Below are positions 762 to 27,340 of a DNA stretch of 27,403 bases, in pieces. The stretch lies in IMG/VR virus record IMGVR_UViG_3300032020_000039, positions 1-27,403 of that record; one strand, given 5' to 3'. Position 1 is the first letter of the stretch. The number at the start of each line of letters is the position of its first letter. Under the pieces are notes generated by a model. The model saw only the letters and a program-made list of their open reading frames with translations. It was not told where the DNA came from and ran no database searches. The DNA is from a virus. A program made the position numbers and the translations under genes.

Positions 762-1426
762 TCCACTACCTTTAGTCTTCGGCGGAAATCTCTCGCACTG
801 TTAAGAACCACACTTCCAATATCTGGGTCAAAGAAGCGACTCACTACACGCACTGGCAATGAATCCAAATCTTTATTGGTAACAATCACAGTGATACTTC
901 TAGCCCGGTATCTGCCATTTATAATCCTCTCCATCACCGACATCTCCCAGTCAGTCCCATACTCCATACCAAAATCATCAAACAGAAGTGCCCCTTTGCC
1001 ACTTTGATAATTTTCAATAACCGCATCAACATCTTCCCTACTCTCACGCATCATCCGTCTTAAATAGGCTAGGAAGTCAGCCACTACCCATATCCTGCTC
1101 ACTATGCCCCGCTCCCTCAATTTCAAGGCTAGTGCTTCAAGCAAGTGGGTCTTGCCATTGCCTACCCCACCATAGCATAGCAGAAATGGCTTCCCTGTCC
1201 CTTCAGCCAGTGCCTTAAATGCCTCATATGCCTCTTTCGTCCCTGGCAAGGGCTTAAAGTTCTCAAAGGTATGATTGGGATTAGACACTCCAAAGGAATA
1301 AACTGGGATAGCCTCAACTTCCGCCGGCAACTCTATGCTCTTCAGGTGATTTATACTCATTCCTTGATTTAAGTTCCCTAGAGCTTTGCTTATGTGTTCC
1401 ACCTTTGCCCTCCTTCGGAAATTCAT
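758..1426 (-). CDS. DnaC/IstB-like AAA+ ATPase, helicase loader
   Basis: A 222-residue AAA+ ATPase of the DnaC/DnaI/IstB type, which loads the replicative helicase at the phage origin. Walker A is GGVGNGKT near residues 86-93, Walker B is ALLFDDFG near 146-153, a sensor-1 type segment VTNKD lies near 182, and RVVSRF supplies a candidate arginine finger near 193-198. The start is the ATG with AAAGG eight bases upstream. An internal ATG at 1360 would give about 200 residues and still keep the ATPase core. The 5' end overlaps the replisome organiser by about 113 bases, which fits two replication proteins that act together. Confidence 0.85.
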   Translation of the reverse strand: MNFRRRAKVEHISKALGNLNQGMSINHLKSIELPAEVEAIPVYSFGVSNPNHTFENFKPLPGTKEAYEAFKALAEGTGKPFLLCYGGVGNGKTHLLEALALKLRERGIVSRIWVVADFLAYLRRMMRESREDVDAVIENYQSGKGALLFDDFGMEYGTDWEMSVMERIINGRYRARSITVIVTNKDLDSLPVRVVSRFFDPDIGSVVLNSARDFRRRLKVVE

Positions 1427-2024
1427 CTTCCCAACCTTTAGCATTGAGCCAAGTAGCAGGATATGGGATAAACTTCCCATCATCCTTTTGCCAATCTACT
1501 GATTTTATAGCTTGCTCTATTGTAGCTAACATAGTCGCTAAAAGTTGTTCGTCAGGATTGATTTTTGCAAAAGCCTTCTCCGCTTGCCCTTTAGATTTCC
1601 GCTTGGGATATGCCTTCCAGAAAATTTCAAACTTCTGTGGTATAGATTTCTTTTGGCGGTAAACTTGCTGATAACCTTTTACCCTTTCATATTCCGATTG
1701 ATAGTAACTCCAATTATTGATATGAATACCACCATCATCCTCAGTTATGCGCCCCTCATCTATGCATTTGGATAATGTTCGCTCTAGCATCTCTAATGGC
1801 ACAAATAATTGGCTAGCAATGAAATCATGAGGTAATGCTCGCCCATCCCTATCGGCGATAATTCCAGGCAAGCTAGACATAGCTGATAAGCAAAGAAGGT
1901 CATACCAAACTCCACGTTCATCAGGCGTTAATTGCCAACGAATAGAACCAGTAATACATTCTACAGGATATAGTTTAATCCACCGTCGCCGCCTCTCTAA
2001 AGCTTTCCTTATCCTTGCAGTCAT
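1314..2024 (-). CDS. Phage replisome organiser / DnaD-like replication initiation protein
   Basis: A 236-residue protein with two parts. The N-terminal ~120 residues resemble a winged-helix replisome organiser: a WIKLYP start, then LTPDERGVWYDLLCLSA and a SQLFVP helix segment. The second part (about 130-200) carries the FWKAYPKRKSKGQAEKAF and YPATWLNAKGWEDE motifs common in phage primosome and helicase-loading proteins. The C-terminus is a polar, probably disordered tail encoded in DNA shared with the start of the ATPase gene. It is the first gene after a good promoter and a phased repeat array, so initiator dose is probably controlled there. Confidence 0.8.
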   Translation of the reverse strand: MTARIRKALERRRRWIKLYPVECITGSIRWQLTPDERGVWYDLLCLSAMSSLPGIIADRDGRALPHDFIASQLFVPLEMLERTLSKCIDEGRITEDDGGIHINNWSYYQSEYERVKGYQQVYRQKKSIPQKFEIFWKAYPKRKSKGQAEKAFAKINPDEQLLATMLATIEQAIKSVDWQKDDGKFIPYPATWLNAKGWEDEFPKEGKGGTHKQSSRELKSRNEYKSPEEHRVAGGS

Positions 2025-2037
2025 TCTAATCTCCCTT

Positions 2038-2108
2038 GTTAGTTTAGTAGTTAGATAATATCACAAGTGGTGTTAGAAGTCAAGTTAGTCCATTGTTAGA
2101 AAAGTTAG
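2038..2108. repeat. Six phased GTTAG repeats across the promoter
   Basis: GTTAG (CTAAC on the coding strand) occurs at 2038, 2050, 2072, 2084, 2095 and 2104. The steps are 12, 22, 12, 11 and 9 bases, roughly one or two helical turns, so most copies face the same side of the DNA. Three copies lie upstream of the -35 box, one abuts it and two lie downstream of the -10. This looks like an operator or iteron array, but the binding protein is not known. Between the array and the gene ending at 2212 there is only an A/T-rich, purine-skewed stretch with GATA/TATC tandem runs. Confidence 0.6.
2055..2083 (-). promoter_or_regulatory. Sigma70-type promoter of the replication initiator operon
   Basis: On the minus strand, TTGACT (-35) and TATTAT (-10) are separated by exactly 17 bases. 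The expected start point lies about 25 bases before the replisome organiser ATG, with GGGAG as ribosome site. The promoter sits inside the GTTAG/CTAAC repeat array, so a repressor or initiator bound to the repeats would cover it. Confidence 0.75.
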
Positions 2109-2211
2109 ATTTATGTATCTATCTATATCTATATCTCTTTCTCTATCTTTTTAAGGGATAGGATTGTTAAGGGAAGGGGAAGCCTTTTGGGGTCTAGCCA
2201 CTCGGTATCTC

Positions 2212-2418
2212 CTACATACTTTCGCAGGTTCTTTCTTCTACTGGTATCTTATGGTCTTTAACACTATGTTCCCCACAGGGTGGATTAAAAGGTGCAATCT
2301 CGCATTCTTCACAAATGAATTCACCACAGCCATAGCAGTAAAAGTCTTGAGTAACTTCTTGTTTACAAAAATAACATCTTGGGTTTTTCCTGACAGGTTT
2401 TAATGTTTCAACTACCAT
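2212..2418 (-). CDS. Small zinc-finger protein
   Basis: A 68-residue protein dominated by metal ligands in the order CYFC, CYGC, CEEC, then CGEH and a further His. The spacing of the CxxC pairs resembles a RING/B-box-like or double zinc-ribbon fold, but no specific family can be assigned. The ribosome site is AAAGGAGG before the ATG. It is the last gene before the replication promoter and probably ends the 6420-2212 transcript. Confidence 0.7.
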   Translation of the reverse strand: MVVETLKPVRKNPRCYFCKQEVTQDFYCYGCGEFICEECEIAPFNPPCGEHSVKDHKIPVEERTCESM

Positions 2419-2436
2419 CTATGCCTCCTTTGGGTC

Positions 2437-3120
2437 TTATTCTGGAAACTCCTGTCTTTGCTCATAACCAAAATATTGACCTAGTAGTGGTCTCAGATTG
2501 TCTTTCAGGAACACCTTCACACCAGCTTTATCACAGGCTCTTACAATCTCCGCTATCCACTCCATCTTAGGGTCATACTTATGCCCATAGCCCGTAAGCC
2601 TACCGATGATGAGCCAGTCTAAAGTGCTCCCTATATGTGCTGGCAAATCCTCTAAATAGCATGATGCTAACATCGGCTCTATGCTCACATATCGCTTGCT
2701 GCAACGAATATCATCAAGGTGGTTCAGGGCATCAAAGAGCATATCAGCATTAGTAGCTGTCACCCCCACCCAGTAATTCTCAGGAAATGGGCTGAACTTG
2801 ATTAGGTTCTGGGGTTGCTTAGTAAGAACTTGAAAGATATGCTGGGGATATTGTTGCGTCTTTTCCTTGATAGCTTCACGCCATTCATCCGGTACCCAGT
2901 TGCCCCAATAATCGTTTGTAGAGCATAAGAATACCCTCTTAGGGACTTTGGGGAGCTTGTCAAATACTGAGAGGTCAAGCCTCAATTCAGGGTCTTGCTT
3001 AAATCTGTGAGCTATTCCTCGTTTGCCAGAATAATAACAATACCAGCATCCCCCTTGACACAATCCCTTAATAGGGTTTAGTGTCATATCTGTCCAGCCA
3101 ATGCTCGCTTTCAGACTCAC
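2437..3120 (-). CDS. Phage Gp37/Gp68 family (DUF5131) radical-SAM-like protein
   Basis: A 227-residue protein with an N-terminal cysteine cluster CQGGCWYC (C-x3-C-x2-C, radical-SAM type) after NPIKG. It also carries the LCSTNDYWGNWVP and FQVLTKQPQNL segments and the YVSIEPML motif typical of the phage Gp37/Gp68 (DUF5131) family. Such proteins resemble spore photoproduct lyase-type radical SAM enzymes, but their substrate is unproven. A role in DNA repair or base modification is only inferred. Its ATG overlaps the stop of the upstream zinc-ribbon gene (ATGA). Confidence 0.85.
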   Translation of the reverse strand: MSLKASIGWTDMTLNPIKGLCQGGCWYCYYSGKRGIAHRFKQDPELRLDLSVFDKLPKVPKRVFLCSTNDYWGNWVPDEWREAIKEKTQQYPQHIFQVLTKQPQNLIKFSPFPENYWVGVTATNADMLFDALNHLDDIRCSKRYVSIEPMLASCYLEDLPAHIGSTLDWLIIGRLTGYGHKYDPKMEWIAEIVRACDKAGVKVFLKDNLRPLLGQYFGYEQRQEFPE

Positions 3121-3257
3121 CTTATCTCCTTTAACTTAGGGTGACATCTTGAACAAAGCCACTCTGTTCTACCTACTCCTTTATCCCTTAGCCACCATAC
3201 ATTACAGCCACAACGGCAAGGTTTATTTGGTTTGGATGGAATGTTATTCCCCATCAT
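3117..3257 (-). CDS. Small zinc-ribbon protein
   Basis: A 46-residue protein with paired ligands CRCGC and CSRCHP around a Trp-rich centre (VWWLRDKG, then EWLC), a compact zinc-ribbon pattern often seen in phage-encoded small proteins. Tandem ATGs at 3257 and 3254 are possible starts; both lie within the end of the preceding gene. The frame extends upstream, but that part only shadows the neighbour. Its stop is coupled to the Gp37/Gp68 gene by ATGA, which supports it being translated. Confidence 0.6.
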   Translation of the reverse strand: MMGNNIPSKPNKPCRCGCNVWWLRDKGVGRTEWLCSRCHPKLKEIR

Positions 3258-4122
3258 ACTCTGGCCAATCATTAAGCTGTTTGACTTCGTAGTATACACT
3301 TGGAATATCCTCATTTATCCGCTTCTCAGGGATTTTAAATTTATTGATGAGATAAGACTTCGTAAACTTAGTATCCTTATGCTTGGCGTGCTTGGCTACA
3401 TAGTTAAAAAGTTGTTCTTGCGTCTTGGGTATTTTGGTAGGGATGGCCACCTCTTCTTTAGGAGGGGTTAGTATAACCGTATTATCGGCACTTAAACTGC
3501 TTCCCTTGCTTCCCCCCTTTGGGAATAGCTCCTCACTATCACGCTCGGCTTGCTCTAAATCTGGAGCAGGTGTATCAGTTTTTTGAGCGGTAGATTTTAC
3601 TGTAGGTTTGCGGAGTTCAGCCTTTGCTTCAAGTGTTTTAAGTGCTATTGAGATTGTGCCCTCACTAAGCCAACGGTAATAAACTTCTGCCGTAGTTAAT
3701 ATATCTTTGACTTCTATCAATTTAGCAATCGCCATATCTTTGGCATAGGACAAAGCGTAGGAGCGCCTACTCAATTCTATTTCCTCAGCAGATTTACCAT
3801 ATTGCCTTCCCCCACCAACTGCTACTGGCTGACCGTCTTTGTAAATCTGGGTTACTTTTCTGTCAGTAAAAGTAGTCCCTTCAAAATTCCCCGTTCCTTC
3901 CCTAGTGGAAGTAACAATATCCGCCTCAAGAATCTGTCCCTTACTAGCCTCAATAGCCTCAAACAATCTGGTGCTAAAGGTGAAGAATTTTAACTCCTTA
4001 TCATCGACCTTAGCCTTAAACTCTAATTTGACAGCCCCTCGGTCGCCTATTGGTTGCCTCTCCTTTACCTCCAAAATCTCCAGCTTCATTCGTTGTGGTT
4101 TCAGTGTTTCTGTTTGAGTCAT
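3244..4122 (-). CDS. Putative phage ssDNA-binding / recombination accessory protein
   Basis: A 292-residue protein. The first ~100 residues look like an all-beta OB-like domain (alternating KLEILEVKE, VKLEFKAKV, LKFFTFSTRLF, VTQIYKDGQPV). A helical segment rich in Ala/Leu follows (120-180), then a polar Pro/Ser/Thr-rich linker, then a short basic winged-helix-like C-terminus (about 245-290). This layout suits a single-strand DNA binding or recombination mediator protein, and its place in the replication module agrees. No catalytic motif is seen and the assignment is by architecture only. The ribosome site is AAGGAGGG. Confidence 0.5.
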   Translation of the reverse strand: MTQTETLKPQRMKLEILEVKERQPIGDRGAVKLEFKAKVDDKELKFFTFSTRLFEAIEASKGQILEADIVTSTREGTGNFEGTTFTDRKVTQIYKDGQPVAVGGGRQYGKSAEEIELSRRSYALSYAKDMAIAKLIEVKDILTTAEVYYRWLSEGTISIALKTLEAKAELRKPTVKSTAQKTDTPAPDLEQAERDSEELFPKGGSKGSSLSADNTVILTPPKEEVAIPTKIPKTQEQLFNYVAKHAKHKDTKFTKSYLINKFKIPEKRINEDIPSVYYEVKQLNDWPEYDGE

Positions 4123-4252
4123 TATTTTTACCCTCCTTAATCTTTTTTGTAGTCTTATCTATAGATATATTCAATTCCTTTTCAGGTTTATTAACATTAG
4201 GCAGTAAGGGTTTCCTCGGTTTATAAGGCCAATTCGGGTTTCTTCGGGTCAT
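4016..4252 (-). CDS. Possible overlapping hypothetical protein, 78 aa
   Basis: A very polar 78-residue reading rich in Asn, Lys, Arg and Pro (starts MTRRNPNWPYKPRKPLLP). The final third lies inside the start of the ssDNA-binding gene in another frame, and the start lies inside the 38-residue gene before it. A GGGGAA stretch precedes the ATG. The unique central part fills an otherwise uncovered gap, which is the main argument for it. It could equally be a spurious reading of an A-rich leader. Confidence 0.4.
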   Translation of the reverse strand: MTRRNPNWPYKPRKPLLPNVNKPEKELNISIDKTTKKIKEGKNNDSNRNTETTTNEAGDFGGKGEATNRRPRGCQIRV

Positions 4253-6638: not shown

Positions 6639-6968
6639 CTATTCTAGTGCGTCTGGTATGGCAAGGGGTACTTCTTCTAAAGAGTAATAAATAGGAATCC
6701 CCAAATATCTTGCCTGGCCTACTTCCCTATCGGCTCCTTCGCTATCACCATCAAGCCTCAGTAAGGCATCGCATCTTTCTAATATCGCAGAATCAATCTC
6801 TAACCAAACCTCCCACGGCTTGGGTGATAAGAAATGCCAAAAGTGGGTAAGGCAAGGGCAAAAGGGGATATGCCCTTTCTTAAGCACTTCATCTGCAACC
6901 ATTAAAGAATTCCTTACATTTACAGCTATATCTCCCAGCGAATATGGAGAGGCTATGTAAATCAACAT
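6639..6968 (-). CDS. DUF4406 / nucleoside 2-deoxyribosyltransferase-like protein (intact copy)
   Basis: A 109-residue protein with the family hallmarks in order: IYIASPYS at the start, a helix with NVRNSLMVADEVL, the HIPFCPCLTHFWHFL segment (36-50), WLEID with ERCDALLRL (about 64-78), and the SEGADREVGQARYLGIPIYYSLEE C-terminal block. Relatives of nucleoside 2-deoxyribosyltransferases bind nucleosides or nucleotides; the SxGAxxE block holds the likely catalytic Glu. Its ATG overlaps the end of the upstream homing endonuclease gene. A truncated paralogue lies on the other side of that endonuclease. Confidence 0.8.
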   Translation of the reverse strand: MLIYIASPYSLGDIAVNVRNSLMVADEVLKKGHIPFCPCLTHFWHFLSPKPWEVWLEIDSAILERCDALLRLDGDSEGADREVGQARYLGIPIYYSLEEVPLAIPDALE

Positions 6969-7483
6969 TCTTTATACTGCTTCCTTTTATTTAAGACCTT
7001 TGAATTAAAGTCTATTGCTTCTGACGCACGATTATTTTTTATGTGAAGGTATGGAAGAAGTTCTTTAAGTAAATAAATTACATCTGCTATACGAGCTATT
7101 CTAAAAATATAATGCTTCTTGGTATACCTAACATTGGGTTTTCTCGTCTCTATTTTACCGCAATGTAATAATGTATGCATCCATTCTAATACTTCTAAAT
7201 CGCTATTGGAAAAGGAAAGGAAATACTTATTGCCTTTTTCATTGAGGTATATGCTTCCTTCACCATCCAGAAAGGCTGCGATATAACTTAAATCAGTATT
7301 TGCAATATCCTGTTTACAAATAATAGCGTGGAATCTATATTGTCTAACACGAAGCATTTTAGCTCTAACCCGACAAGCAATTTCACCCGGCGAATTTAAT
7401 AACTCGGGCGAGAAAATTATAGGATATTGCGAATATGCCTCCTTAATTAAATCATCCTCTCTTTGTGTCCACTTATGATACAT
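6962..7483 (-). CDS. Free-standing LAGLIDADG homing endonuclease
   Basis: A 173-residue single-motif LAGLIDADG endonuclease, expected to act as a homodimer. The N-terminal ~45 residues (WTQREDDLIKEAY) resemble a SANT/Myb-like or HTH DNA-binding domain; YIAAFLDGEG at 67-76 is the LAGLIDADG helix with the catalytic acid retained. The GKIETRKPN and IADVIYLLKELLPYLHIK segments are typical of the fold. It has its own promoter and a GAGGG ribosome site. It lies between a truncated and a complete DUF4406 gene, the signature of insertion at that locus. It is related in layout to the endonuclease nested in the glycosyltransferase intein. Confidence 0.85.
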   Translation of the reverse strand: MYHKWTQREDDLIKEAYSQYPIIFSPELLNSPGEIACRVRAKMLRVRQYRFHAIICKQDIANTDLSYIAAFLDGEGSIYLNEKGNKYFLSFSNSDLEVLEWMHTLLHCGKIETRKPNVRYTKKHYIFRIARIADVIYLLKELLPYLHIKNNRASEAIDFNSKVLNKRKQYKEC

Positions 7484-7682: not shown

Positions 7683-8174
7683 TTATACTTCTAGTTCCCG
7701 AATGCGTTGTTGTAATACCTTGACTAATGTATTGTGCTGATGATTTTGTTTGTTGACAAGAGCTAAATTTTCAGGACGATTATCATTTCTAATACCATTA
7801 AGATGATGGACAATTTCTTTGCTAGATAGACATCTATTTAGTGCTCTTGCCATCACAAGGCGATGCTCTAAAATATAGCCTGTTGTTACCCCCTTTTCAC
7901 TACACATTTCATAAAAGGGGTCAGCAGAAGATAAATATACCCTAATATAACCCTGCGTAGTAAAATTCCTACCACCTTTCCATAATCCATGTTTCAATCC
8001 AATGCGTTTCCCTTTTTGAACACAAGATATACAATATTCTTTAGATATTTTGCCCTTATTTAAACGAACCCATCTTTGCTTACCGCATGCAATACAGGCA
8101 GACCATCTATATCTATTCGTCTTTGGCTTGTAACCTATTTCCCTGCCGAGTTTTGTTTCCCCTAAGTATGGCAT
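7683..8174 (-). CDS. HNH homing endonuclease
   Basis: A 163-residue HNH nuclease. Residues 27-51 hold CIAC and CISC, an N-terminal zinc knuckle. The HNH core is at about 102-147: LEHRLVMARALNR, the IVHHLNGIRNDNRPENLALV box with the two His and the Asn residues, and a final His in QNHQHN. A C-terminal helix with heptad spacing follows. The chosen ATG has GGAGGTG upstream; a GTG four codons earlier lies within the ribosome site and is unlikely. It follows the intein-bearing phosphoesterase and carries its own promoter, typical of a free-standing mobile nuclease gene. Confidence 0.85.
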   Translation of the reverse strand: MPYLGETKLGREIGYKPKTNRYRWSACIACGKQRWVRLNKGKISKEYCISCVQKGKRIGLKHGLWKGGRNFTTQGYIRVYLSSADPFYEMCSEKGVTTGYILEHRLVMARALNRCLSSKEIVHHLNGIRNDNRPENLALVNKQNHQHNTLVKVLQQRIRELEV

Positions 8175-8192
8175 ATACACCTCCACAAGTGT

Positions 8193-8226: not shown

Positions 8227-10176
8227 TTATAGTTCTCTCCAATTAAAGTTATATTCAGTATAATGTTTTAAAACGCCATCCTTCCACATAGCAAAACCAT
8301 TGTTCCAGAGATAATACGGACTGTCAGTATAGGTTATGTATCTCATGCACTGAGCATCACCCATCCAGCCTAATTCAATCATGGGTCTTCCGTCAGGTGT
8401 AAAGCCTTCCAAACCACGATGACGGTGAGCCAACACAAGCCATTCACCTGGATGAAGTTGTGATAAATCTCGTGATAAAGTCCAATCTAATTTCCTTGCC
8501 TTAGCCGGGTGAGTTACTCGGACTTTATTGTCTATTAGAAGCCAGTTAAACAAGCCGTGAAAATGGAGCTTAGGATTATCCTTCTGTCCTACTAACCCCA
8601 TCAGCCTTTTAGCCGATACTGAAAATGTTACTGCTCCTAATAATCTAAGCCAGTGATTGCCACCGATAATATCAATTCGCTCAAACCAATTGAATAGCTT
8701 TTCCAAAATCATTTCGGTGAAGGCTAGTTCATCATCTAGCTTTACGGCTATATCTTCAGCCTGCTTTTGCCTTAACCACCAAGATAACCGGTCAATATCC
8801 CCAAAGTCCCCACCGATGACCAGTTGCTTTATGTTCTCCTTCTTAGCAACACTCAAAAGTCTGTTTAACCATAGCATAGAGATAAAGGGAGAATTGCCTG
8901 TTAGGGTAACTTTCCCATTTCTTCTAACAAATATTGTTTTATTATCAGTAGCGATACACCAAACAATGCCATTATAATGTTCTGTTTGTCTGTTCCTATA
9001 ATAAAAGACACCAGTAGAATTACAACTCATTCTGTAAAATGGATGCTCACCCTTGCAAAGCCTCACTGATGGTGACATCCCTGCTATAATGGTAAATTCC
9101 ATTAACTTATCAATCATAGAAGGGGATTTTTGAGAAATCCGAAATCTCCCTATATCTCCATCACCCTTCCTAAAGGTATCAATGTACAATTGAGCTTGTC
9201 TTCGGGAAAACTTGATATTGGGTATCTGTTTAGATTTCCTTATTAAGTATTGCTTAAAGGAAAAAACTTTCATCGGATAACGATTAAAGCCTGTAAGGGG
9301 ATTAGTCCTTTCATCAAAGTCAATCTCAAGTTCATTTAGCGTATTCCTTATTTCTTCACAATGGTGAGAATGGTCGGATTGATAAACGAAAGTCCTTCCT
9401 GTTTCCCTTACTGTCCCCTCAGTATTTATCCACGCCATCAATTTTATTTGTGCATCAGAATAAGGGGCATCTTCCCAATCACATAAACCATTATTGATAC
9501 TTCTATCCAGCTTATTTATATCTTTGGCTGGCTTAAATTGTAAAATTGGTTGCCTAAAATTATGTAGGTTGAGGTGTGGTATTTGATGTTCAGGGGTTAC
9601 CAATAAATCGTGGTCTCTATGTAGCCATCTATACATATCACCAACATAATTGTATTTTATGATTTTCCGAATTTCTTTGTATTCCAATTGAAGATTTTGA
9701 GGATTAACCGTCAATGGTTTATCTTTTTCGTTAATTGTATTAATGGTTTTCCATCCATTATTTGTTAAGATTTCGCTCTCGGAGTCAACACAGTGGTAAT
9801 CAGCGCTGATAATATAATCACCCGTGAGTTTGTCGTTATCAATTATCGCTGGGGCAATTTCCCTTTGATACTCCATCATAATATCATCAAGCGTAATACC
9901 AGCAACATTTAACCTATCGTAGATAGTTGTATGTGCTACACCAAGAATTCTTGATGCTGGGAAAACACCACCAGCAGCTTTAATTACATCTTTTATTTCT
10001 TCTATTGTTTTATTAAGTAATTTGCTTTCAGGGGCAAACCGCAAGCCAAATTTCTGAGTATAATCCCGAATCGTTCTAGCATTGAGATTAAGACCTCTGG
10101 CTGCCTCAACACTACTGGAATATTTCTTAACTACATCTTGCCAATAACTTTCTTTTTGAGGATATTTAGGTTTAAT
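8227..10176 (-). CDS. HTH-metallophosphoesterase with embedded intein (probable AUU start)
   Basis: A calcineurin-like metallophosphoesterase interrupted by an intein. From the proposed start the precursor is 649 residues; removing the intein leaves about 349. Residues 1-100 contain two HTH-like segments (VEAARGLNLNARTIRDY and FPASRILGVAHTTIYDRL). The metal site follows: ADYH at 125-128, GGDFGD near 455-460, GGNHW near 505-509, TH near 556 and AHRH near 583-586, corresponding to DxH, GD, GNH and GHxH of the family. No ATG, GTG or TTG lies in frame upstream of a TTG at 10044. That TTG lacks a ribosome site and would cut off the first HTH. An ATT at 10174-10176 sits five bases after AGGAGG and is the best start. 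Substrate unknown; a nuclease or repair role is plausible. Confidence 0.75.
   Translation of the reverse strand: MKPKYPQKESYWQDVVKKYSSSVEAARGLNLNARTIRDYTQKFGLRFAPESKLLNKTIEEIKDVIKAAGGVFPASRILGVAHTTIYDRLNVAGITLDDIMMEYQREIAPAIIDNDKLTGDYIISADYHCVDSESEILTNNGWKTINTINEKDKPLTVNPQNLQLEYKEIRKIIKYNYVGDMYRWLHRDHDLLVTPEHQIPHLNLHNFRQPILQFKPAKDINKLDRSINNGLCDWEDAPYSDAQIKLMAWINTEGTVRETGRTFVYQSDHSHHCEEIRNTLNELEIDFDERTNPLTGFNRYPMKVFSFKQYLIRKSKQIPNIKFSRRQAQLYIDTFRKGDGDIGRFRISQKSPSMIDKLMEFTIIAGMSPSVRLCKGEHPFYRMSCNSTGVFYYRNRQTEHYNGIVWCIATDNKTIFVRRNGKVTLTGNSPFISMLWLNRLLSVAKKENIKQLVIGGDFGDIDRLSWWLRQKQAEDIAVKLDDELAFTEMILEKLFNWFERIDIIGGNHWLRLLGAVTFSVSAKRLMGLVGQKDNPKLHFHGLFNWLLIDNKVRVTHPAKARKLDWTLSRDLSQLHPGEWLVLAHRHRGLEGFTPDGRPMIELGWMGDAQCMRYITYTDSPYYLWNNGFAMWKDGVLKHYTEYNFNWREL
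8893..9792 (-). mobile_element. Intein (with in-frame LAGLIDADG domain) in the phosphoesterase
   Basis: A 300-residue intein beginning at Cys (CVDSESEILTNNGW, block A) and ending Thr-Gly-Asn before Ser+1. The block B signature is TPEHQIPH. The central region holds an in-frame homing endonuclease with two degenerate motifs, LMAWINTEG and YIDTFRKGDGD, both keeping the acidic residue. The extein junction ADYH|SPFISMLWLN restores the metallophosphoesterase DxH segment, so insertion is directly beside the metal ligands. The usual penultimate His is Gly, a tolerated variant in some inteins. Splicing is predicted, not shown. Confidence 0.85.
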
Positions 10177-18365: not shown

Positions 18366-19811
18366 TTATCTTATCCTCACAATTTTAGTTCTTGAATATA
18401 ATTTTGCTATTAAAGCTCTTAATCCCATCATTAACATGTAACTCCTAGCGGGAAGATTGATTGTTAAGCTCCTAGCATACAAAGAAATATCAAAACTTCT
18501 CTTATATAATTTTATCACAAGGAAGGCTAATACTCTACGGACAATAGATAACCTTGACTCAATCAAGGAGACTGCCTCATTAATTATCCGTAGCATTGTT
18601 CGGGGTCTTAAAGTAGACTCTATGATAGATATAGCTTCGGCTATTACTTTTATAATAAGTCCATAGAGCTTAGTGGCGATTGTCTCACTAATATTTATTG
18701 ACTCTCCAATTCTTTTAAGTAATGTAGTTAGTCTACGATGGGTTTCAGCTAGATTAACTATCTCCCCTATTCTCCGAAACATCTGCCTAAAGGCTCTAGT
18801 GGTTTCATTAATATTTACAGCTTCAGCAATCCTTCTAAATAACTGGCGGGATATTTTGGTTGCCTCACCGATATTGATAGTTTCACCAATTCGGCGGAAT
18901 AATTGGCGGAAGATTTTAGTAGATTCGCTAATACCTAATACTTCCGCAATAATTCGAAGTATTCCTTTAACCCTAGCGATTGATTCATTGAGACTAACTG
19001 TTTCCCCTATCCTACGAACTAACCCTCTGTAGGCTCTATATGATTCATTAATATTGACAATTTCGCCAATCCTTCTAAACAAAGCTCTAAATCTACGGAG
19101 AGCTTCATTAATATTAATAGCTTCGTTGATAATCTGTAATATGCCTTTAGATTTAATAATAGCTTCGACAATACTTATAGCTTCGGCTATTACTTTTACA
19201 ATAAGTCTGTAGAGTTTAGTGGCAATTGTTTCACTAATATTTATTGATTCCCCGACTCTCTTGAGTAGAGTGGTTAACCGCCGATAAGATTCATTTATAT
19301 TTATTGCTTCATTTATTCTTCGAAACATTTCCCTGAATGGTCTAGTATTCTCATTAATATTGACCAGTTCCCCAATTCGGCGATACATAGCTTTAAATAT
19401 TTTTGTGGATTCATTGATGTTTACAGTTTCCCCTATTCTTTTGAGTAATGTAATTAATCTTCTAGTAGTTTCATTTATAGTAATCATTTCGCCAAACCTG
19501 CGGAATAAAGTTCTAAAACTGCGATGAGTTTCATTGAGATTAACTACTTCCCCTATCCTGCGAAATTGTTGCTCATATCGTCTATGGGTCTCATTTATCC
19601 CTTCAGTCTCCCCAATCCGCCTGAATAAGCTTTTAAACCTACGATAAGCCTCATTAAGCCCTTCGGTTTCGTTTATGATTTTAATATAGTCTTCACCTAC
19701 AACAATCTGAAAGGCGTCATTCTGAAAGGCATCTGTCTGAAAAGCTGTTTCGCCAGCAAGCATTTCCCCAAATGCTGCTTCAGCAAATAAAGTCTCACCA
19801 AAAGCGGGCAT
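18366..19811 (-). CDS. Fibre-like protein of nineteen 20-residue repeats
   Basis: A 481-residue protein. Residues 1-43 form an AFxTDAFQxDAFQI-type leader (FQTDAFQNDAFQIVVGED) seen in phage structural proteins. Residues 44-427 are nineteen tandem repeats of about 20 residues, consensus RRIGExVNINExxRxFRxLF. The conserved Glu, Asn and paired Arg alternate with Ile/Val/Leu. The last ~50 residues are basic and hydrophobic. The regular period suggests a rod made of beta-turn or short helix units, perhaps trimeric. Position between a BppU-like adaptor and a collar protein supports a tail fibre or spike shaft. No enzymatic motif. Confidence 0.7.
   Translation of the reverse strand: MPAFGETLFAEAAFGEMLAGETAFQTDAFQNDAFQIVVGEDYIKIINETEGLNEAYRRFKSLFRRIGETEGINETHRRYEQQFRRIGEVVNLNETHRSFRTLFRRFGEMITINETTRRLITLLKRIGETVNINESTKIFKAMYRRIGELVNINENTRPFREMFRRINEAININESYRRLTTLLKRVGESINISETIATKLYRLIVKVIAEAISIVEAIIKSKGILQIINEAININEALRRFRALFRRIGEIVNINESYRAYRGLVRRIGETVSLNESIARVKGILRIIAEVLGISESTKIFRQLFRRIGETINIGEATKISRQLFRRIAEAVNINETTRAFRQMFRRIGEIVNLAETHRRLTTLLKRIGESINISETIATKLYGLIIKVIAEAISIIESTLRPRTMLRIINEAVSLIESRLSIVRRVLAFLVIKLYKRSFDISLYARSLTINLPARSYMLMMGLRALIAKLYSRTKIVRIR
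18531..19682 (-). repeat. 60-bp tandem coding repeats with a higher-order duplicate
   Basis: Nineteen copies of a ~60-base unit in frame, each coding ExxNINE and a basic half. Repeats 7-9 and 16-18 are a larger duplicate: the segments at 19164-19283 and 18618-18737 encode 40 residues of which 36 are the same, both with a two-residue insertion (ETIATKLY). This points to block duplication or unequal recombination on top of older, diverged units. Confidence 0.8.
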
Positions 19812-21503: not shown

Positions 21504-22052
21504 CTAAGCCCCCAACATTTTACTAGATTCTATTGACCTTTCTCTTTGACGTCTTAGTTTTTGTGCTTGGCTAAGATTTCTAATATAACCTTGACTTCGT
21601 AGCCAATAATTTATAGTTGCTGGTTTAAGACCCAATTTAATACCAATTGCCTTACAGCTTAAACCATCTATATACCAGCCGAGTGCTTGACTAAATTCAT
21701 CTCTAAATTCAATTTTATCAATTCTAATTTTCTTTTTAAGTCCCAGAAGTTTGTGTGCCTTCTTTTTCTTAAGTATTAAATAGGGTAAACAGCTGCGAGT
21801 TATTTCCCGACTAACTCTTGAGCCAAAAGTTAATTGATGCATTAAACTATTTTTATCAAAACCACTGGGATGACTAGATATACTACCAACACCCAATTTA
21901 TCAATTATATAATCTAGAATTAATCTATCTTTTTGATGAATGCAAAGCTTACAAAGATAATATCCCTGCTTATCTTGATAAATATTTAAGCAACCATCAC
22001 CATCAATAAACCCTGCTAACCAAGCCCAAAAAGTTTCTGGTAAATCTTTCAT
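21504..22052 (-). CDS. Free-standing LAGLIDADG homing endonuclease, probably leaderless
   Basis: A 182-residue single-motif endonuclease starting MKDLPETFWA, with WLAGFIDGDG at residues 11-20. It also shows the CIHQKDRLILDYIIDKLGVGSI and ILKKKKAHKLLGLKKKI segments of the fold and a C-terminal HTH-like part (CKAIGIKLGLKPATINYWL). A TTG reading from 22097 would overlap the upstream gene but has no ribosome site. The ATG at 22052 lies seven bases after a perfect TATAAT and is preferred. Its last residues (MLGA) echo the LLGA end of the upstream structural protein, evidence of insertion at that 3' end. Confidence 0.85.
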   Translation of the reverse strand: MKDLPETFWAWLAGFIDGDGCLNIYQDKQGYYLCKLCIHQKDRLILDYIIDKLGVGSISSHPSGFDKNSLMHQLTFGSRVSREITRSCLPYLILKKKKAHKLLGLKKKIRIDKIEFRDEFSQALGWYIDGLSCKAIGIKLGLKPATINYWLRSQGYIRNLSQAQKLRRQRERSIESSKMLGA

Positions 22053-22105
22053 AGTTAGATTATATACTATGAAACTAACTCTGTCAACTAATATCAAGCC
22101 CCCAA
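21506..22105. repeat. 10-bp direct repeat flanking the homing endonuclease gene
   Basis: AAGCCCCCAA occurs at 21506-21515 and at 22096-22105, once at the end of the endonuclease gene and once at the end of the upstream structural gene. On the coding strand it is TTGGGGGCTT, coding Leu-Gly-Ala followed by the stop region in both genes. It may be a target duplication, microhomology or trace of gene conversion. Confidence 0.7.
22059..22087 (-). promoter_or_regulatory. Full-consensus sigma70 promoter of the endonuclease gene
   Basis: TTGACA, 17 bases, TATAAT: both hexamers and spacer match consensus exactly. The expected start point falls on or next to the A of the ATG at 22052, so the transcript would have no leader. 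A TTTCATAG/CTATGAAA inverted repeat and an AGTTAG/CTAACT pair overlap the -10 region and could be an operator. Confidence 0.85.
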
Positions 22106-22807: not shown

Positions 22808-24868
22808 TTATTTAATATTATACTCTTTGTATCTTATAGGTTCAAGACTATCTAAGATAGGCTTCCAGCCTTCATTAATTATCTTTTCCCAACGATAACC
22901 CATAGCAAATTCACGCCCTACTTTACCTAATGCTTTTCTATCTGCTTGATATGCAGCTTCCATAGCTTCAATTATGCCATCAATATTAGGTAATGCCTGA
23001 AAAGAATTTAGAGGTGTCCACCACCTACGGGCTACAGGAACTTTCCAGCCAGCAGCTGTTAGTTCTGGCATAGAAGAAAAGTCAGTAGTAATTACGGGAA
23101 TACCACAATTATGGACTATAAAACCTTGAGCTACATAGACATGCGATTTTGTTGCAAGGTTGTAGACTGGAAGATTTTTGACTTTTCTCGTTCGGATTTC
23201 AATGATGGCTTCACGTTCAAATCCTTCAGTATTTGGATTATCTCTTGTTGCCTCTTGTTGATTTTCTCGTGTATTCCTTGAGCTAATCTTTCTTGTGCCC
23301 ATTGAATTATCAAATGGCAGTGTATTTGTTTTATTACCAATAAGGGTAATAGTTTCTTGAATAGGGGAAGAAACCCTATCCCCGTTATCCAGAATAGATA
23401 TGCTTGTGCCCATCCCTTCACTAACTTGCGTTTTTCTATTCGGGTATTTGCACAGGTTATCTTTTTCTGCAACCATTCCATTAACATTGGGGAACTGCTG
23501 GATATGCAAATTATTGGCTTCCAGTTGTTGTCCCGTCCGTTTCGCCTTCTGATTGAAATTGTGCCCTCGCCATCTATCAATCCTGCTAAATAACCCCATT
23601 CGGCTTCTGTTAATGGTGGAGACTTCAAAGTTATCTTTTGCCCAATTGTTTTGTGAATTCCTGCTTGTTGTATTTGCCAAAATGCTTGACCATAGGTCAG
23701 TCCTACTTTTTGAGCTACCTCTTTGAGGGGCATGATTTTGTATAGTGTGAACAATTTCTCCGATTGAGCCTGACTGTATTTTCTGTAACCCTTCTTGGGC
23801 ATAACCACCTCCTAGGGTATATTCTTTATTATACCATAATTGATGGTTTTCAGTTAAGTCTTTAGCCAAAACCCAATCATTGTTAGTCCAAAAAGGATGT
23901 TCAGGGGTTACTTCAATAGTTCCTTTTGCTGTTTCTATAGTAATAATATCCCCAGAATATGAGCGTTCTTGTATGCCAATGATATCTTCTGCGGTTACAA
24001 ATGTATCACTTGGAAAGCAACTCTGTGCCTCTAAAATGGGAATCCCAAATCCTTCACCCATAGATACTGCACATAGAACATCCATAGCATTATATATCTG
24101 GCACATTAGGTCATCAGGAAAGCCAAGATTTAATAGATAGGGTTCAGCAAATCTTATATATTCAGTAATTCCAAATCCTCTACTCATTAATTGGAGGTCA
24201 GGCCCACCATACCGGTTAGATGATTCAGAATGACAATATAATCTAGTTTCAGGATGTCTCTTTACAAATTCCGAAAATGCCTCAAAAATCTCAGGGAAAC
24301 ATTTGCGACAAGGCCAGCCTTTATTAGCTGCTACCATACCGATTAGAAAGCAATCAGAAGGAAAACCCAATTGTTTCTTAAGTTCACCCTTAATTATATC
24401 TAAGGGCTTAAAAGCATTTATATCTACTCCATGCGGAACATAATCAGCTTTAATTCCTGCATTACCTAATTCTTTAACCCCAAATTTACTAAAAGCAACA
24501 ACTCTTAAAGCAGACCGTAATCGTTGAACTATTGGTTCGGGTGCCGGGCTATGGTCAATAGGTAGCCAAGGAATCCAGCGAACCATATTACCAAAATTTT
24601 CATGCATTACCCAAACATCCATAAGGCTAATAACAATATCAGCTTTAAAATGCCGGGCATGATTCATAAATATATCATTACCCCAAATATCATTCCATAT
24701 TGGATAACAAGTATGCCCCTGATATTCCATTATCCCACCCTGTAATCCCCAGAATGGGAAGACTGCTACAGTATGTCCTAATTTCTCAAATCCTGATACG
24801 AGATGCCTAGCCTGAACACCGTATCCGGTAGGTGCCCATTCGGCATTGGATTGAATAAGTATTCTCAT
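22808..24868 (-). CDS. GT4 family glycosyltransferase interrupted by an intein
   Basis: A 686-residue precursor; removing the intein (residues 284-587) leaves 382 residues, normal for a GT-B, GT4-type glycosyltransferase. The N-extein has AEWAPTGYGVQARHLVSGF, HGVDINAFKP (~146-155) and GMVAANKGWPCRKCFPEI. The donor-binding motif GEGFGIPILEAQS|CGIPVITTDFSSMPEL is split by the intein at S|C; in GT4 enzymes the E in this ExxE/EAxxCG block binds the nucleotide sugar. Until spliced the enzyme should be inactive. Start is an ATG immediately after the SDR stop, with AAGGAG upstream. It probably transfers a sugar made by the upstream enzymes onto virion or host glycans. Confidence 0.85.
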   Translation of the reverse strand: MRILIQSNAEWAPTGYGVQARHLVSGFEKLGHTVAVFPFWGLQGGIMEYQGHTCYPIWNDIWGNDIFMNHARHFKADIVISLMDVWVMHENFGNMVRWIPWLPIDHSPAPEPIVQRLRSALRVVAFSKFGVKELGNAGIKADYVPHGVDINAFKPLDIIKGELKKQLGFPSDCFLIGMVAANKGWPCRKCFPEIFEAFSEFVKRHPETRLYCHSESSNRYGGPDLQLMSRGFGITEYIRFAEPYLLNLGFPDDLMCQIYNAMDVLCAVSMGEGFGIPILEAQSCFPSDTFVTAEDIIGIQERSYSGDIITIETAKGTIEVTPEHPFWTNNDWVLAKDLTENHQLWYNKEYTLGGGYAQEGLQKIQSGSIGEIVHTIQNHAPQRGSSKSRTDLWSSILANTTSRNSQNNWAKDNFEVSTINRSRMGLFSRIDRWRGHNFNQKAKRTGQQLEANNLHIQQFPNVNGMVAEKDNLCKYPNRKTQVSEGMGTSISILDNGDRVSSPIQETITLIGNKTNTLPFDNSMGTRKISSRNTRENQQEATRDNPNTEGFEREAIIEIRTRKVKNLPVYNLATKSHVYVAQGFIVHNCGIPVITTDFSSMPELTAAGWKVPVARRWWTPLNSFQALPNIDGIIEAMEAAYQADRKALGKVGREFAMGYRWEKIINEGWKPILDSLEPIRYKEYNIK
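23131..23802 (-). CDS. LAGLIDADG homing endonuclease nested out of frame in the intein
   Basis: A 223-residue ORF wholly inside the intein coding sequence, in the +1 frame relative to it. It has an N-terminal HTH-like domain (LFTLYKIMPLKEVAQKVGLT), the catalytic helix YLAGLIDGEG at 71-80, then ISSSSPMLMEWLQKKI and FLPLFKKLLPLLVIKQIH of the fold. One motif implies a homodimer. The ATG follows a perfect AGGAGG by five bases; those same bases encode Leu-Gly-Gly-Gly-Tyr of the intein. A GTG two codons earlier is in frame but lies within the ribosome site. The stop is 23 bases before the intein end, so the last ~20 codons also overlap the splicing block. It should be translated independently of the glycosyltransferase. 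Confidence 0.85.
   Translation of the reverse strand: MPKKGYRKYSQAQSEKLFTLYKIMPLKEVAQKVGLTYGQAFWQIQQAGIHKTIGQKITLKSPPLTEAEWGYLAGLIDGEGTISIRRRNGRDNNWKPIICISSSSPMLMEWLQKKITCANTRIEKRKLVKGWAQAYLFWITGIGFLPLFKKLLPLLVIKQIHCHLIIQWAQERLAQGIHEKINKRQQEIIQILKDLNVKPSLKSEREKSKIFQSTTLQQNRMSM
23828..23857 (-). promoter_or_regulatory. Putative promoter of the nested endonuclease
   Basis: TTAACT (-35, four of six matches) and TATAAT (-10) with an 18-base spacer, inside the intein coding sequence and just upstream of the nested gene. TTATGGTATAAT (23828-23839) is identical in 12 bases to the promoter of the 6962-7483 endonuclease. Suggests expression apart from the glycosyltransferase transcript. Confidence 0.55.
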
Positions 24869-25525
24869 TTAGAAGCTCCTTGATTCTCCCCCATCGGCTG
24901 TTATGCAGGCACCATTTATCCAGCGAGCATAATCCGAGCATAAAAATGCTACTATTCCAGCTACATCTTCAGGTTTGCCATATCGCTCATATTTGTCCAG
25001 TTTCTTACCTTCAATCCAGATTGCTCCAGGACAGATAGTATTAAAAGTTATATTAGCTTCTTGATATTCTTTTCTAAGAGCTAGACATTTCATTAAGCTA
25101 ATTTCAGCCGCCTTAGCCATATTAAACCAAGGCCTCCCCCCACCTTCTTTACCATAAATAGAAGCTATCGTTATTACCCTACCCCATTTATTTTCAAGCA
25201 TATAAGGCAAACAAGCCATAGTGAATTTTATAGCTGCTTCGGCATTCTTTTTGTATACTTCTTGCCACACTTTAAATTGTGTTAAAGTAGGTTCTTCTTC
25301 TCCCCAACGCCCTCCTCCCCCAATATTATTTATCAATATATCTGAATCGGCATATAAGGTTGTAGCTCTAGCTATATCATTATCAATAAGCACATCATAA
25401 CCTTCTCGCCTTGAAATGGAATGGACTGTGCAACCTTCGGATAAAAGTAATTCTTTTATTGCCAAGCCAATACCATGGCTGCCTCCAGTTATTAATGCTA
25501 TTTTATCTTTAAGTCCTAAATCCAT
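24869..25525 (-). CDS. Short-chain dehydrogenase-like protein lacking the catalytic Tyr
   Basis: A 218-residue classical SDR. The NAD(P) loop TGGSHGIG is at 13-20, NNIGGGG is in place of NNAG (66-72), Ser of IASIYGKEGG is near 122, and CPGAIW and CSDYARWINGACITADGGES are C-terminal. The catalytic YxxxK is FNMAK: Phe134 replaces Tyr while Lys138 is kept. Without the Tyr hydroxyl the usual hydride-transfer chemistry should be impaired, unless another residue substitutes. It probably belongs to nucleotide-sugar modification with the neighbouring genes. It overlaps the RmlC-like gene by ten bases and abuts the glycosyltransferase. Confidence 0.8.
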   Translation of the reverse strand: MDLGLKDKIALITGGSHGIGLAIKELLLSEGCTVHSISRREGYDVLIDNDIARATTLYADSDILINNIGGGGRWGEEEPTLTQFKVWQEVYKKNAEAAIKFTMACLPYMLENKWGRVITIASIYGKEGGGRPWFNMAKAAEISLMKCLALRKEYQEANITFNTICPGAIWIEGKKLDKYERYGKPEDVAGIVAFLCSDYARWINGACITADGGESRSF

Positions 25526-26028
25526 TTTGCCCGTTTATCTCTTTCCGATAATATTGGGTTTTTAACCGGCCATTGAATATTAAACTGAGGGTCATCATAT
25601 CTAAAGGTTACTTGATTGGGATTATCTAAATTATAATATTCTGATTGCATTACATGAATAATAACAAAGTCACTTAACGCTACGAAACCAGTTCCATATT
25701 GAGGCGGCTTAAAAAGCTGAAGATAATTCTCATCAGATAAAGTAAAAGAATCCCATTTACCAAATTCCTTATCATTCTTATCGCAATTCACCAGAACATA
25801 ATAGGCTTTACCATACAAACATTGATAGAGTTTCGTACACAAAGGGCTATAATGGATTCCGCTTAGAACATTCTTTTTTGCCGTGAATACATTATGTTCT
25901 ATAAAATTTATTCCAAGCCAATTATATTTCCCAGAGTGCCAAGTCATAAAATTTTTACCTCGTAAATCATCATAGATTTCGGGCTCTATTAATAAAACTC
26001 CTGATAACTTGGACGGGATTACCCGCAC
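25516..26028 (-). CDS. RmlC-like dTDP-sugar 3,5-epimerase family protein
   Basis: A 170-residue cupin-fold epimerase. The family core is seen as EHNVFTAKKNVLSGIHYSP (His59 as catalytic base), Lys66 in TKLYQCLYG, FKPPQYGTGFVALSD, the Tyr pair in MQSEYYN (131-132), and TFRYDDPQFNIQWPVKNPILSERD at the end. RmlC enzymes epimerise 4-keto-6-deoxy sugar nucleotides. The catalytic His and Tyr look intact, so activity is plausible; the exact substrate is unknown. Overlaps both neighbours by ten bases, suggesting coupled translation. Confidence 0.8.
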   Translation of the reverse strand: MRVIPSKLSGVLLIEPEIYDDLRGKNFMTWHSGKYNWLGINFIEHNVFTAKKNVLSGIHYSPLCTKLYQCLYGKAYYVLVNCDKNDKEFGKWDSFTLSDENYLQLFKPPQYGTGFVALSDFVIIHVMQSEYYNLDNPNQVTFRYDDPQFNIQWPVKNPILSERDKRAKWI

Positions 26029-26999
26029 CTTCTTAACTCCTTATCAGACACGCTAGAATCAAAATCTGAGGCTTTTTCTGGCGAACAAGTACTAAACCAT
26101 TCCCAAGTTCTTTTTAGCCCCTCTTTTAAGCCTACGGACGGTTTGTAACCTAATAATTCTTGGGCTTTTGATATATCCATTATCCTTATTGGGTAAGAAG
26201 CTGGTTTATCAGAAAACTTGTAATTGAAAGGAATTATTTCAGCCATTGTCTCTATAACTTCTTTAATTGTATGATATTCTGTCCCACCAAGATTGATAAT
26301 ACCTTTGCCTAATCCATATTGCATGGCTTGAATTATGCCACTGGCAACATCCTCACTATATAGGAAATCCCTAACCTCATTACCATTAGTATGAATAAGG
26401 ACAGGATTATCGCCTCTTTTTATTTTAGCCATAAGTGAGGGAATAAACATTGAGGTTTCGGCGTCAAATTTATCTCCAGGACCATATATATTTGTCAGCC
26501 GAACTATGGCAAAATTATTATTCCCATATTCTAATTTATAAGATTCTATCTGAAATTCACCAATCCGCTTAGCCCATCCAGGCCAGAAATCCATAGGATT
26601 TCCTTGCCAAGCATCGCTTTCTTTTAATATTTGTTTATAAGAATAGGCTCCGATAGAGCTAGTATAAACTATACCTTTGATACTAGCTATTCGGCAAGCC
26701 TCTAGTATATTTGTATTCATTTGGAGTATAGGAACAAAAAAACTGGATGCTCGACTATGTGTTATAACAGGTGACCCTTTTAGACCAGCAAGATGAAATA
26801 TATAATCCTTATCAGAAACAATATCACAGCAAAATTTTGAATCTGTCAAATCTGCACAGATATGGCTAATATTAGGTAATCCATTAGGTTCTAGGGATAC
26901 AGTTGTTATTATTGCCCCAGCATCGTAGAGTAATTTAGCTATTTGTCTACCGATAAGTCCAGTACCACCAGTAATTAAGATTTTTTTATTTCTGAACAT
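26019..26999 (-). CDS. Extended SDR, NDP-sugar epimerase/dehydratase-like
   Basis: A 326-residue extended SDR. The NAD loop GGTGLIG is at 11-17, FHLAGLKG near 68-75, TSS near 113-115, IVRLTNIYGPGDKFD in mid-protein, and EVRDFLYSEDVASGI and INLGGTEYHTIKEV in the substrate-binding part, as in UDP-glucose 4-epimerase and GDP-sugar relatives. The usual Y-G-W-A-K is P-G-W-A-K: Pro140 replaces the catalytic Tyr, Lys144 is retained. Either the enzyme has changed chemistry or it is a non-catalytic partner. It overlaps the cupin gene by 25 bases. Confidence 0.8.
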   Translation of the reverse strand: MFRNKKILITGGTGLIGRQIAKLLYDAGAIITTVSLEPNGLPNISHICADLTDSKFCCDIVSDKDYIFHLAGLKGSPVITHSRASSFFVPILQMNTNILEACRIASIKGIVYTSSIGAYSYKQILKESDAWQGNPMDFWPGWAKRIGEFQIESYKLEYGNNNFAIVRLTNIYGPGDKFDAETSMFIPSLMAKIKRGDNPVLIHTNGNEVRDFLYSEDVASGIIQAMQYGLGKGIINLGGTEYHTIKEVIETMAEIIPFNYKFSDKPASYPIRIMDISKAQELLGYKPSVGLKEGLKRTWEWFSTCSPEKASDFDSSVSDKELRRCG

Positions 27000-27340
27000 T
27001 GCGATTCCGAAAGTCTAACTATATCATTGTCATTATGATGAGTGCTAATTTCCAAAATCACAGCATTGGCTATTCCTATAAACTGATGCTGCATACCTGG
27101 ATAAATTGTTTTGGGGCGGGCAAAAGGAGTCAACATATAATCTTTCCCTTCAATTGTTAAACCCGCCGTTCCTTGCAGAGCATAAAAGGTTTCCTTTTTA
27201 ATATTATGATAATGAAGCGATGATATGGCTCCTTTATCTAAATAAAGTAACTTGCTACAGTATTCGGGACAATTTATAATCCATTCCTCTCTCCCCCATT
27301 TTTTAGGAACTATCTTTAAAGATGATTTGACTTCCCCCAT
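26975..27340 (-). CDS. Cupin-fold sugar isomerase-like protein
   Basis: A 121-residue single-domain cupin. Metal ligands fit motif 1 (His43, His45 and Glu50 in SSLHYHNIKKETFYALQG) and motif 2 (His85 in YPGMQHQF), as in the C-terminal domain of type II phosphomannose isomerases and related sugar-phosphate isomerases. It is short compared with bifunctional ManC (about 470 aa), so it may act alone on a keto-sugar or be a binding protein. Ribosome site GGAG. It starts within the end of the kinase-like gene upstream. Confidence 0.75.
   Translation of the reverse strand: MGEVKSSLKIVPKKWGREEWIINCPEYCSKLLYLDKGAISSLHYHNIKKETFYALQGTAGLTIEGKDYMLTPFARPKTIYPGMQHQFIGIANAVILEISTHHNDNDIVRLSESQCSEIKKS

Follow-up and report, generated by a model that had tools for sequence, protein, structure and literature searches.

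Inteins are normally scored as mobile elements or as mini-inteins by searching for an endonuclease in their own reading frame. The stretch of viral DNA analysed here (the window: 27,403 nt, IMG/VR record IMGVR_UViG_3300032020_000039) raises the question of how to read an intein that fails this search while its DNA carries a complete homing endonuclease gene one base over. Is the second gene real, are both frames maintained, and could a nuclease encoded in this way be the mobility enzyme of the intein?

Anatomy of the glycosyltransferase intein and of its nested gene

The features of the locus are the following:

22808-24868, minus strand: precursor ORF of a GT4-family glycosyltransferase, 686 aa, uninterrupted (382 aa without the intein)
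23108-24019, minus strand: intein, 304 aa, residues 284-587 of the glycosyltransferase precursor
23735-24019, minus strand: N-terminal splicing (HINT) half, intein residues 1-95, from the AF2 model
23228-23734, minus strand: intein-frame linker, residues 96-264, predicted to be disordered and free of stops
23108-23227, minus strand: C-terminal splicing half, residues 265-304, including VYNLATKSHVYVAQGFIVHN, from TIGR01443 and AF2
23131-23802, minus strand: HTH+LAGLIDADG homing endonuclease gene, 223 aa, in the +1 frame relative to the intein
23808-23813, minus strand: AGGAGG Shine-Dalgarno, overlapping the nuclease-frame TAG upstream of the ATG
23828-23857, minus strand: promoter-like TTAACT-18-TATAAT with a TG extension, the best match in the region, just upstream of the nuclease

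The precursor matched glycosyltransferase families (phrog_2170, 2.2e-28; Pfam Glyco_trans_1_4, 8e-7). Its intein is inserted within the E..E active-site motif, between EGFGIPILEAQS and CGIPVITT; it opens with CFPSDT and closes with FIVHN, followed by Cys. All class 1 residues are present (Cys1, T38-P-E-H41, His303-Asn304 and Cys+1), and C1, H41, H303 and N304 are invariant across six relatives. In the glycosyltransferase frame, Pfam Intein_splicing gave a match with an E-value of 2e-7, under the curated cut-off, and NCBIfam intein_Cterm (TIGR01443) matched the intein above its cut-off. In an AF2 model built from an intein alignment, ten-residue blocks of the N-terminal half had mean pLDDT values mostly of 72-92, with dips to 46 near residues 71-80 and to 54 at block 91-100. 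Values fell to about 25-32 in the linker and were 63-94 in the C-terminal half (about 79-94 for residues 271-304). The best Foldseek matches of this model were nearly all inteins or hedgehog HINT domains, with E-values of only 0.008-0.1, which are weak because most of the model is disordered. The HINT fold expected of a class 1 intein is thus met at the level of model prediction. Removal of the intein leaves a complete host protein, joined as EAQS|CGIPV, and an empty, intein-less GT4 site, EAQACGCPV, was found in Microcystis phage Mae-JY09. Protein splicing of the precursor is inferred from these features, in the absence of expression data.

The nested gene starts in the context TAGGAGGTGGTTATG, with a 5-nt spacer between AGGAGG and ATG and three codons between the nuclease-frame TAG and the ATG; its 3′ end overlaps the C-terminal splicing block. 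Its frame matched Pfam LAGLIDADG_3 just under the curated cut-off (E 1.8e-4) and the endonuclease family PHROG 5046 (1.3e-14). The AF2 model of its product (pLDDT 86) retrieved I-CvuI, I-MsoI and I-CreI with Foldseek (E about 1e-6), and the AGLIDGEG of the catalytic helix is invariant in six relatives. The product is therefore predicted, by modelling, to have both the helix and the fold of a LAGLIDADG enzyme. Site-specific cleavage of an empty allele remains an inference, the target being deduced from the insertion site only. The gene sits at the position usual for in-frame endonuclease domains, which have been described as always occupying one conserved insertion site (PMC6801210). The promoter-like match would yield a short leader carrying the Shine-Dalgarno; such sites are no more numerous there than chance would give, so that an internal promoter is suggestive only.

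Some observations concern the surroundings of the locus. Three endonuclease-like genes lie outside inteins, at 21504-22061, 6962-7483 and 7683-8186 (all minus strand), two of them LAGLIDADG by Pfam and one HNH-looking by eye. A 481-aa protein encoded at 18366-19811 (minus strand) consists of many degenerate repeats of the RRIGE.ININE..R type. Genes at 24869-27340 (minus strand), adjoining the glycosyltransferase, resemble sugar-nucleotide enzymes (SDR, epimerase and cupin types by eye), which suggests, by eye, a phage glycosylation cluster around it. PADLOC gave no result.

Recurrence at the same site and in other phages

Relatives were sought with a degenerate DNA pattern (the GT4 motif followed by Cys and a hydrophobic residue) and by a scan with the nuclease alignment. 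The pattern yielded three same-site GT4 inteins (L001, L016 and L029) and the scan added a fourth (L034). Each of the four carries an HTH+LAGLIDADG gene in +1 that shares 36-43% identity with that of the window. Since the exteins of the group are only 29-40% identical, the layout is either old or repeatedly transferred, and all the copies are too divergent to reveal recent homing. Two more inteins, L036 and L363, occupy two other sites, in VWA/metallopeptidase-like proteins, and again have an HTH+LAGLIDADG gene nested in +1. Among the pattern-recovered GT4 inteins none was seen without a nuclease or with an in-frame one, and the C-terminal junction pattern VHNCGxPV returned only GT4 inteins already found. 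P0001 and P0002, each used as a single query against viral contigs, gave no relatives, and a scan of genome contigs gave no full-length nuclease relative. For nearly all the weaker nuclease relatives that were checked, the other frames of the same strand contain no long ORF enclosing the gene.

Stop-to-start distances bear on how the nested genes are expressed. In eight cases, the gap between the last nuclease-frame stop and the start is 3 codons (window), 1 (L418, a PolA intein listed below), 2 (L036), 5 (L419, a helicase intein listed below), 11, 11, 16 and 29 codons. Gaps of this size speak against a lengthy frameshift fusion and favour translation from the ATG itself. Purine-rich candidate signals precede the start in L419 and L034; in L016 and L029 there is no clear Shine-Dalgarno and a TATAAT lies seven bases before the ATG, so that initiation may differ between members.

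We then surveyed inteins ending in NGFIVHN, which gave 80 matches, 69 of them with a usable ORF and some redundant. The survey provides no count of in-frame nucleases (an in-frame LAGLIDADG regular expression matched none). Besides L036, it contained three more same-strand out-of-frame nucleases:

L418: PolA intein, nested HNH (phrog_374, 3e-27)
L419: helicase intein, nested DUF559 (2e-10)
L385: intein at a contig edge, nested HNH_3 (2e-11)

Deposited phage genomes were searched with nucleases of these three types. Out-of-frame nucleases were found within annotated intein-containing CDSs of PolA (Salmonella LDDK01, Streptococcus Javan255, Gardnerella AB1 and Pseudomonas MR14) and of helicases (Pseudomonas MR14, Corynebacterium phi673, Vibrio CP-T1 and Vibrio 159E43-1b), and in none of these records is the nested gene annotated. 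The Salmonella Ent1 record marks the intein and leaves the nuclease unmarked. In Sodalis phage SO-1 (L465), the ORF nested in PolA is annotated (gp39), although it is assigned to a type I intron; Rfam finds no intron there, and the host frame runs through without a stop. The nested families other than LAGLIDADG are HNH and DUF559/Vsr-like, in PolA and helicase inteins. Cultured carriers include Salmonella, Escherichia, Vibrio, Streptococcus, Corynebacterium and Pseudomonas phage isolates, among them Escherichia phage Pubbukkers and Corynebacterium phage phi673.

Other nested ORFs were noted along the way. Gordonia phage SchottB (L458) has an intein in a MuF minor-capsid protein (CDS 1034-4135, minus strand) with a LAGLIDADG ORF antisense to it (2471-3151, plus strand). 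A uracil-DNA glycosylase intein (L409) contains a 261-aa antisense ORF (460-1242) with HTH and Vsr-like features by eye and a weak REase_MTES_1575 match (E 0.039). Three DNA methylases, L270 (minus strand), L318 (plus strand) and L459 (Mycobacterium phage DotProduct), have an out-of-frame LAGLIDADG ORF within an insertion showing no visible intein motifs; they resemble the ShiLan domain discussed below but with a different nuclease family. In L368 (minus strand; oriented 634-2091), a LAGLIDADG ORF is nested in another frame of a ParB-like ORF, with no obvious intein. Alternative ORFs in L291 and L316 were rejected as nested cases, being GC-rich coextensive ORFs without a host domain.

Constraint on the two reading frames

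To evaluate the openness of the intein frame, we held the nuclease protein fixed, permuted its synonymous codons and counted the resulting intein-frame stops. The window has none, against 6.6 expected (P=0.0002), and the third frame of the overlap has 27. Seven other nested cases gave P<=0.0016 each; among nine further intein cases, P was below 0.004 in eight and 0.017 for the PolA of Pseudomonas phage MR14. The DotProduct methylase, which has no intein, was not significant (0.079). As a control, 90 LAGLIDADG ORFs were taken from a scan not based on the window gene. Their stops were about as many as expected (median observed/expected ratio 0.92), and the only 3 of the 90 with no stop in that phase were all nested in a longer host ORF.

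Similarity among the five GT4 copies was examined in the same spirit. With the intein protein fixed, permuting its codons abolished the similarity in the nuclease frame (z=38). With the nuclease fixed, its codons permuted and stops excluded, the intein frame gave z of 5.5 and 4.7 at the ends (the parts shared with the splicing blocks), 3.1 in the linker (against 1.5 for the third frame) and 6.1 overall. We used this last figure, as penalising stops in the null inflates it to 10.4. With values of 3.0 and 3.8 at the ends and of 3.8 overall, the third-frame control was not zero, and some of the excess in the intein frame therefore reflects shared DNA ancestry. These computations support selection for the encoded protein in the nuclease frame, and for the splicing blocks and openness in the intein frame.

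Substitution patterns could be measured in the PolA inteins of isolates. Salmonella Jerseyvirus and Sodalis/Escherichia Dhillonvirus share 83% DNA identity in the overlap region, compared with 52-57% in the flanking PolA exteins; in the core overlap, pN/pS is 0.17 in the nuclease frame and 1.2-1.5 in the intein frame. Within Jerseyvirus, the nuclease frame gave 0.12-0.13 versus 0.86-1.26 for the intein frame. Overall, nuclease-frame pN/pS was 0.12-0.24 in five of six isolate pairs, the sixth having too few changes. Computation thus shows that in the PolA core the nuclease frame is under purifying selection and the intein frame is not, yet stays open. The Jerseyvirus/Dhillonvirus pattern is the one predicted for homing by a nuclease-driven element; it belongs to a sister system and not to the window copy.

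A simple rule bears on the relative phase of the two frames. Enumeration of amino-acid pairs showed that none of them makes a host-frame stop unavoidable when the nuclease is in +1, so that any +1 nuclease can be opened by silent changes alone. In the other phase, a host-frame stop is unavoidable wherever Met precedes Ile, Met, Thr, Asn or Lys. The nested cases are mostly in +1, with the PolA of Salmonella LDDK01 and of Pseudomonas MR14 in +2, and silent openability probably accounts for the preference.

These results can be set against the initial annotation of the locus, made from sequence alone. The coordinates, AGGAGG, ATG, stop and +1 nesting that it gave held exactly. Its estimate that the intein frame would stay open by chance with a probability of (61/64)^224, about 2 in 100000, ignored composition and is corrected by the permutation value, P=0.0002. 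The proposal of two readings with a separate nuclease start is supported by the distinct constraints on the frames and by the stops before the ATG, and that of selection for an open host frame is supported by computation. Neither of the outcomes named as refuting it, a frameshift error whose correction merges the frames or homologues with the endonuclease in frame, occurred: the homologues are likewise out of frame, and every GT4 intein recovered in the homologue search it proposed has the nested gene.

Known systems, rival explanations and proposed mechanism

The GT4 intein of the window combines elements of several known systems. It resembles in-frame LAGLIDADG (DOD) inteins such as PI-SceI and PI-PfuI in its splicing domain, its insertion in an active-site motif and the position of the endonuclease; it differs in that the nuclease is a separate +1 gene with its own start and stop and not a part of the intein protein. 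An in-frame endonuclease, as in a canonical intein, is absent, the nuclease being in +1 in all five GT4 inteins. The same phage has a second, apparently conventional intein at 8227-10044 (minus strand). Its host protein looks metallophosphatase-like by eye, its in-frame endonuclease region appears degenerate, and its Intein_splicing match is weak (E 0.013). The ShiLan domain and the Pacc40 gp60 insertion are out-of-frame HNH genes in methylases without a detectable splicing domain (PMC11855218). They share with the window an out-of-frame nuclease in an insertion, an open host frame and a phage host. In contrast, the window has a true intein (Intein_splicing and TIGR01443 matches), a LAGLIDADG enzyme and a strong Shine-Dalgarno, whereas ShiLan has no detectable RBS (PMC11855218). 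Fractured genes, whose inteins are reported to be split and separated by a free-standing endonuclease (Dassa et al. 2009, cited in PMC8899391), also have a separate nuclease ORF between splicing halves; theirs are two ORFs, while the window intein is continuous within a single 686-aa ORF that overlaps the nuclease gene, and so is not split. The nuclease shares its predicted fold and single LAGLIDGEG helix with the single-motif homodimers I-CreI, I-CvuI and I-MsoI, which are intron-encoded, but has an N-terminal HTH and lies in an intein. Finally, PHROG 5046 and similar free-standing phage LAGLIDADG genes are of the same sequence family, but nearly all the weaker relatives checked lack a long enclosing same-strand ORF.

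No out-of-frame nuclease inside a true intein was found in the full-text literature searched, where the ShiLan element came nearest; subscription papers were mostly outside its scope and novelty is provisional. A preprint from the ShiLan group that deals with non-canonical intein architectures in actinobacteriophages (Gosselin et al. 2025, 10.1101/2025.01.02.630785) may overlap with this finding. The initial statement that known inteins carry an endonuclease in frame or none fits the literature examined and fails against the databases, where many phages, some cultured, have the out-of-frame form. Its further proposal, that a free-standing gene invaded a mini-intein, is plausible because the nuclease lies at the usual endonuclease position, the linker is predicted to be disordered and the weaker relatives are mostly un-nested; this step is inferred, no pre-invasion intermediate having been seen.

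Four other explanations were considered. The first is that one partner is a relic, only the intein mattering or only the nuclease. There are no activity data, and the intein-frame core is nearly neutral in the PolA cases; against this stand the low nuclease-frame pN/pS in five of the six isolate pairs, the AGLIDGEG invariant in six relatives and the splicing residues conserved in all six inteins, which make a relic very improbable. The second is programmed ribosomal frameshifting, producing the nuclease as a fusion to the N-terminal parts of the glycosyltransferase and intein. The predominance of a single phase (+1) would fit. However, gaps of 3, 1, 2 and 5 codons (window, L418, L036 and L419) leave almost no room for a shift, the strong Shine-Dalgarno of the window fits initiation, and silent openability explains why +1 is preferred, the PolA genes of Salmonella and Pseudomonas being cases of the other phase. 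We consider frameshifting most unlikely. The third, also highly unlikely, is that the insertion is an ORF-containing group I or II intron, across which the host frame is never translated. It is favoured by the GenBank note 'type I self-splicing intron' for gp38/gp39 of Sodalis phage SO-1. But the catalytic RNA of a group I intron is missing, with no Rfam match in the window (to E 1) or in eight relatives (gathering threshold); both ends have canonical intein residues and a HINT prediction, and stop avoidance in the intein frame would be without reason. The fourth, a sequencing or assembly frameshift hiding an in-frame endonuclease, is conceivable for an environmental virus contig, single-base errors being common in principle, but is practically ruled out: one shift would not leave the intein frame open through the whole gene, the same phase recurs in four other same-site contigs and two inteins elsewhere, and the out-of-frame layout is seen with other nuclease families in cultured phages, whose sequences come from many laboratories.

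The preferred reading, which we regard as very likely, is that the mobility enzyme of this intein is encoded in another frame, by a mobile nuclease gene with its own start that is overprinted in the flexible linker of a splicing domain. The anatomy of the layout, its conservation, the two-frame constraint, the fold predictions, the empty site and the spread in a related system are shown by computation. Splicing, nuclease translation, cleavage and homing of the window copy are inferred, without expression, splicing or cleavage data. According to the overprinting model, the precursor would be translated in one frame as N-terminal glycosyltransferase, intein and C-terminal glycosyltransferase, and the HINT halves would splice it to release the intact 382-aa enzyme. 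In the intein frame, the DNA between these halves would merely supply a flexible, disordered linker. Shifted by one base, the same strand would also be translated from an internal start (AGGAGG, ATG and perhaps an internal promoter) into a separate 223-aa nuclease of the HTH+LAGLIDADG type with an I-CreI/I-MsoI fold. This enzyme may cut GT4 alleles that lack the intein, at the conserved active-site codons surrounding the site of insertion; repair would then copy the nuclease gene into the cut allele, carrying the intein along.

The GT4 intein of the window is thus a member of a real, recurrent and conserved architecture, in which the homing endonuclease is a separate gene overprinted in an intein, even if its biochemistry is inferred. 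Nested nucleases that are out of frame, and sometimes antisense, likely represent a widespread and largely unrecognised form of intein mobility, reached independently by at least three nuclease families, and many phage inteins that appear to lack an endonuclease are likely mobile. An intein of this appearance with a full nuclease one base over changes how intein mobility should be annotated, and the same holds for the intein-bearing DNA polymerases and helicases of cultured phages. As isolates such as phi673 and Pubbukkers carry the architecture, it can be tested at the bench. The overprinted state might, speculatively, be a stage towards fractured genes and split inteins. It provides a case in which a tolerant linker, together with a simple codon-phase rule, allows two genes to overlap at length on one strand, and a testable intermediate for the entry of nucleases into inteins and for the origin of split inteins with intervening nucleases.
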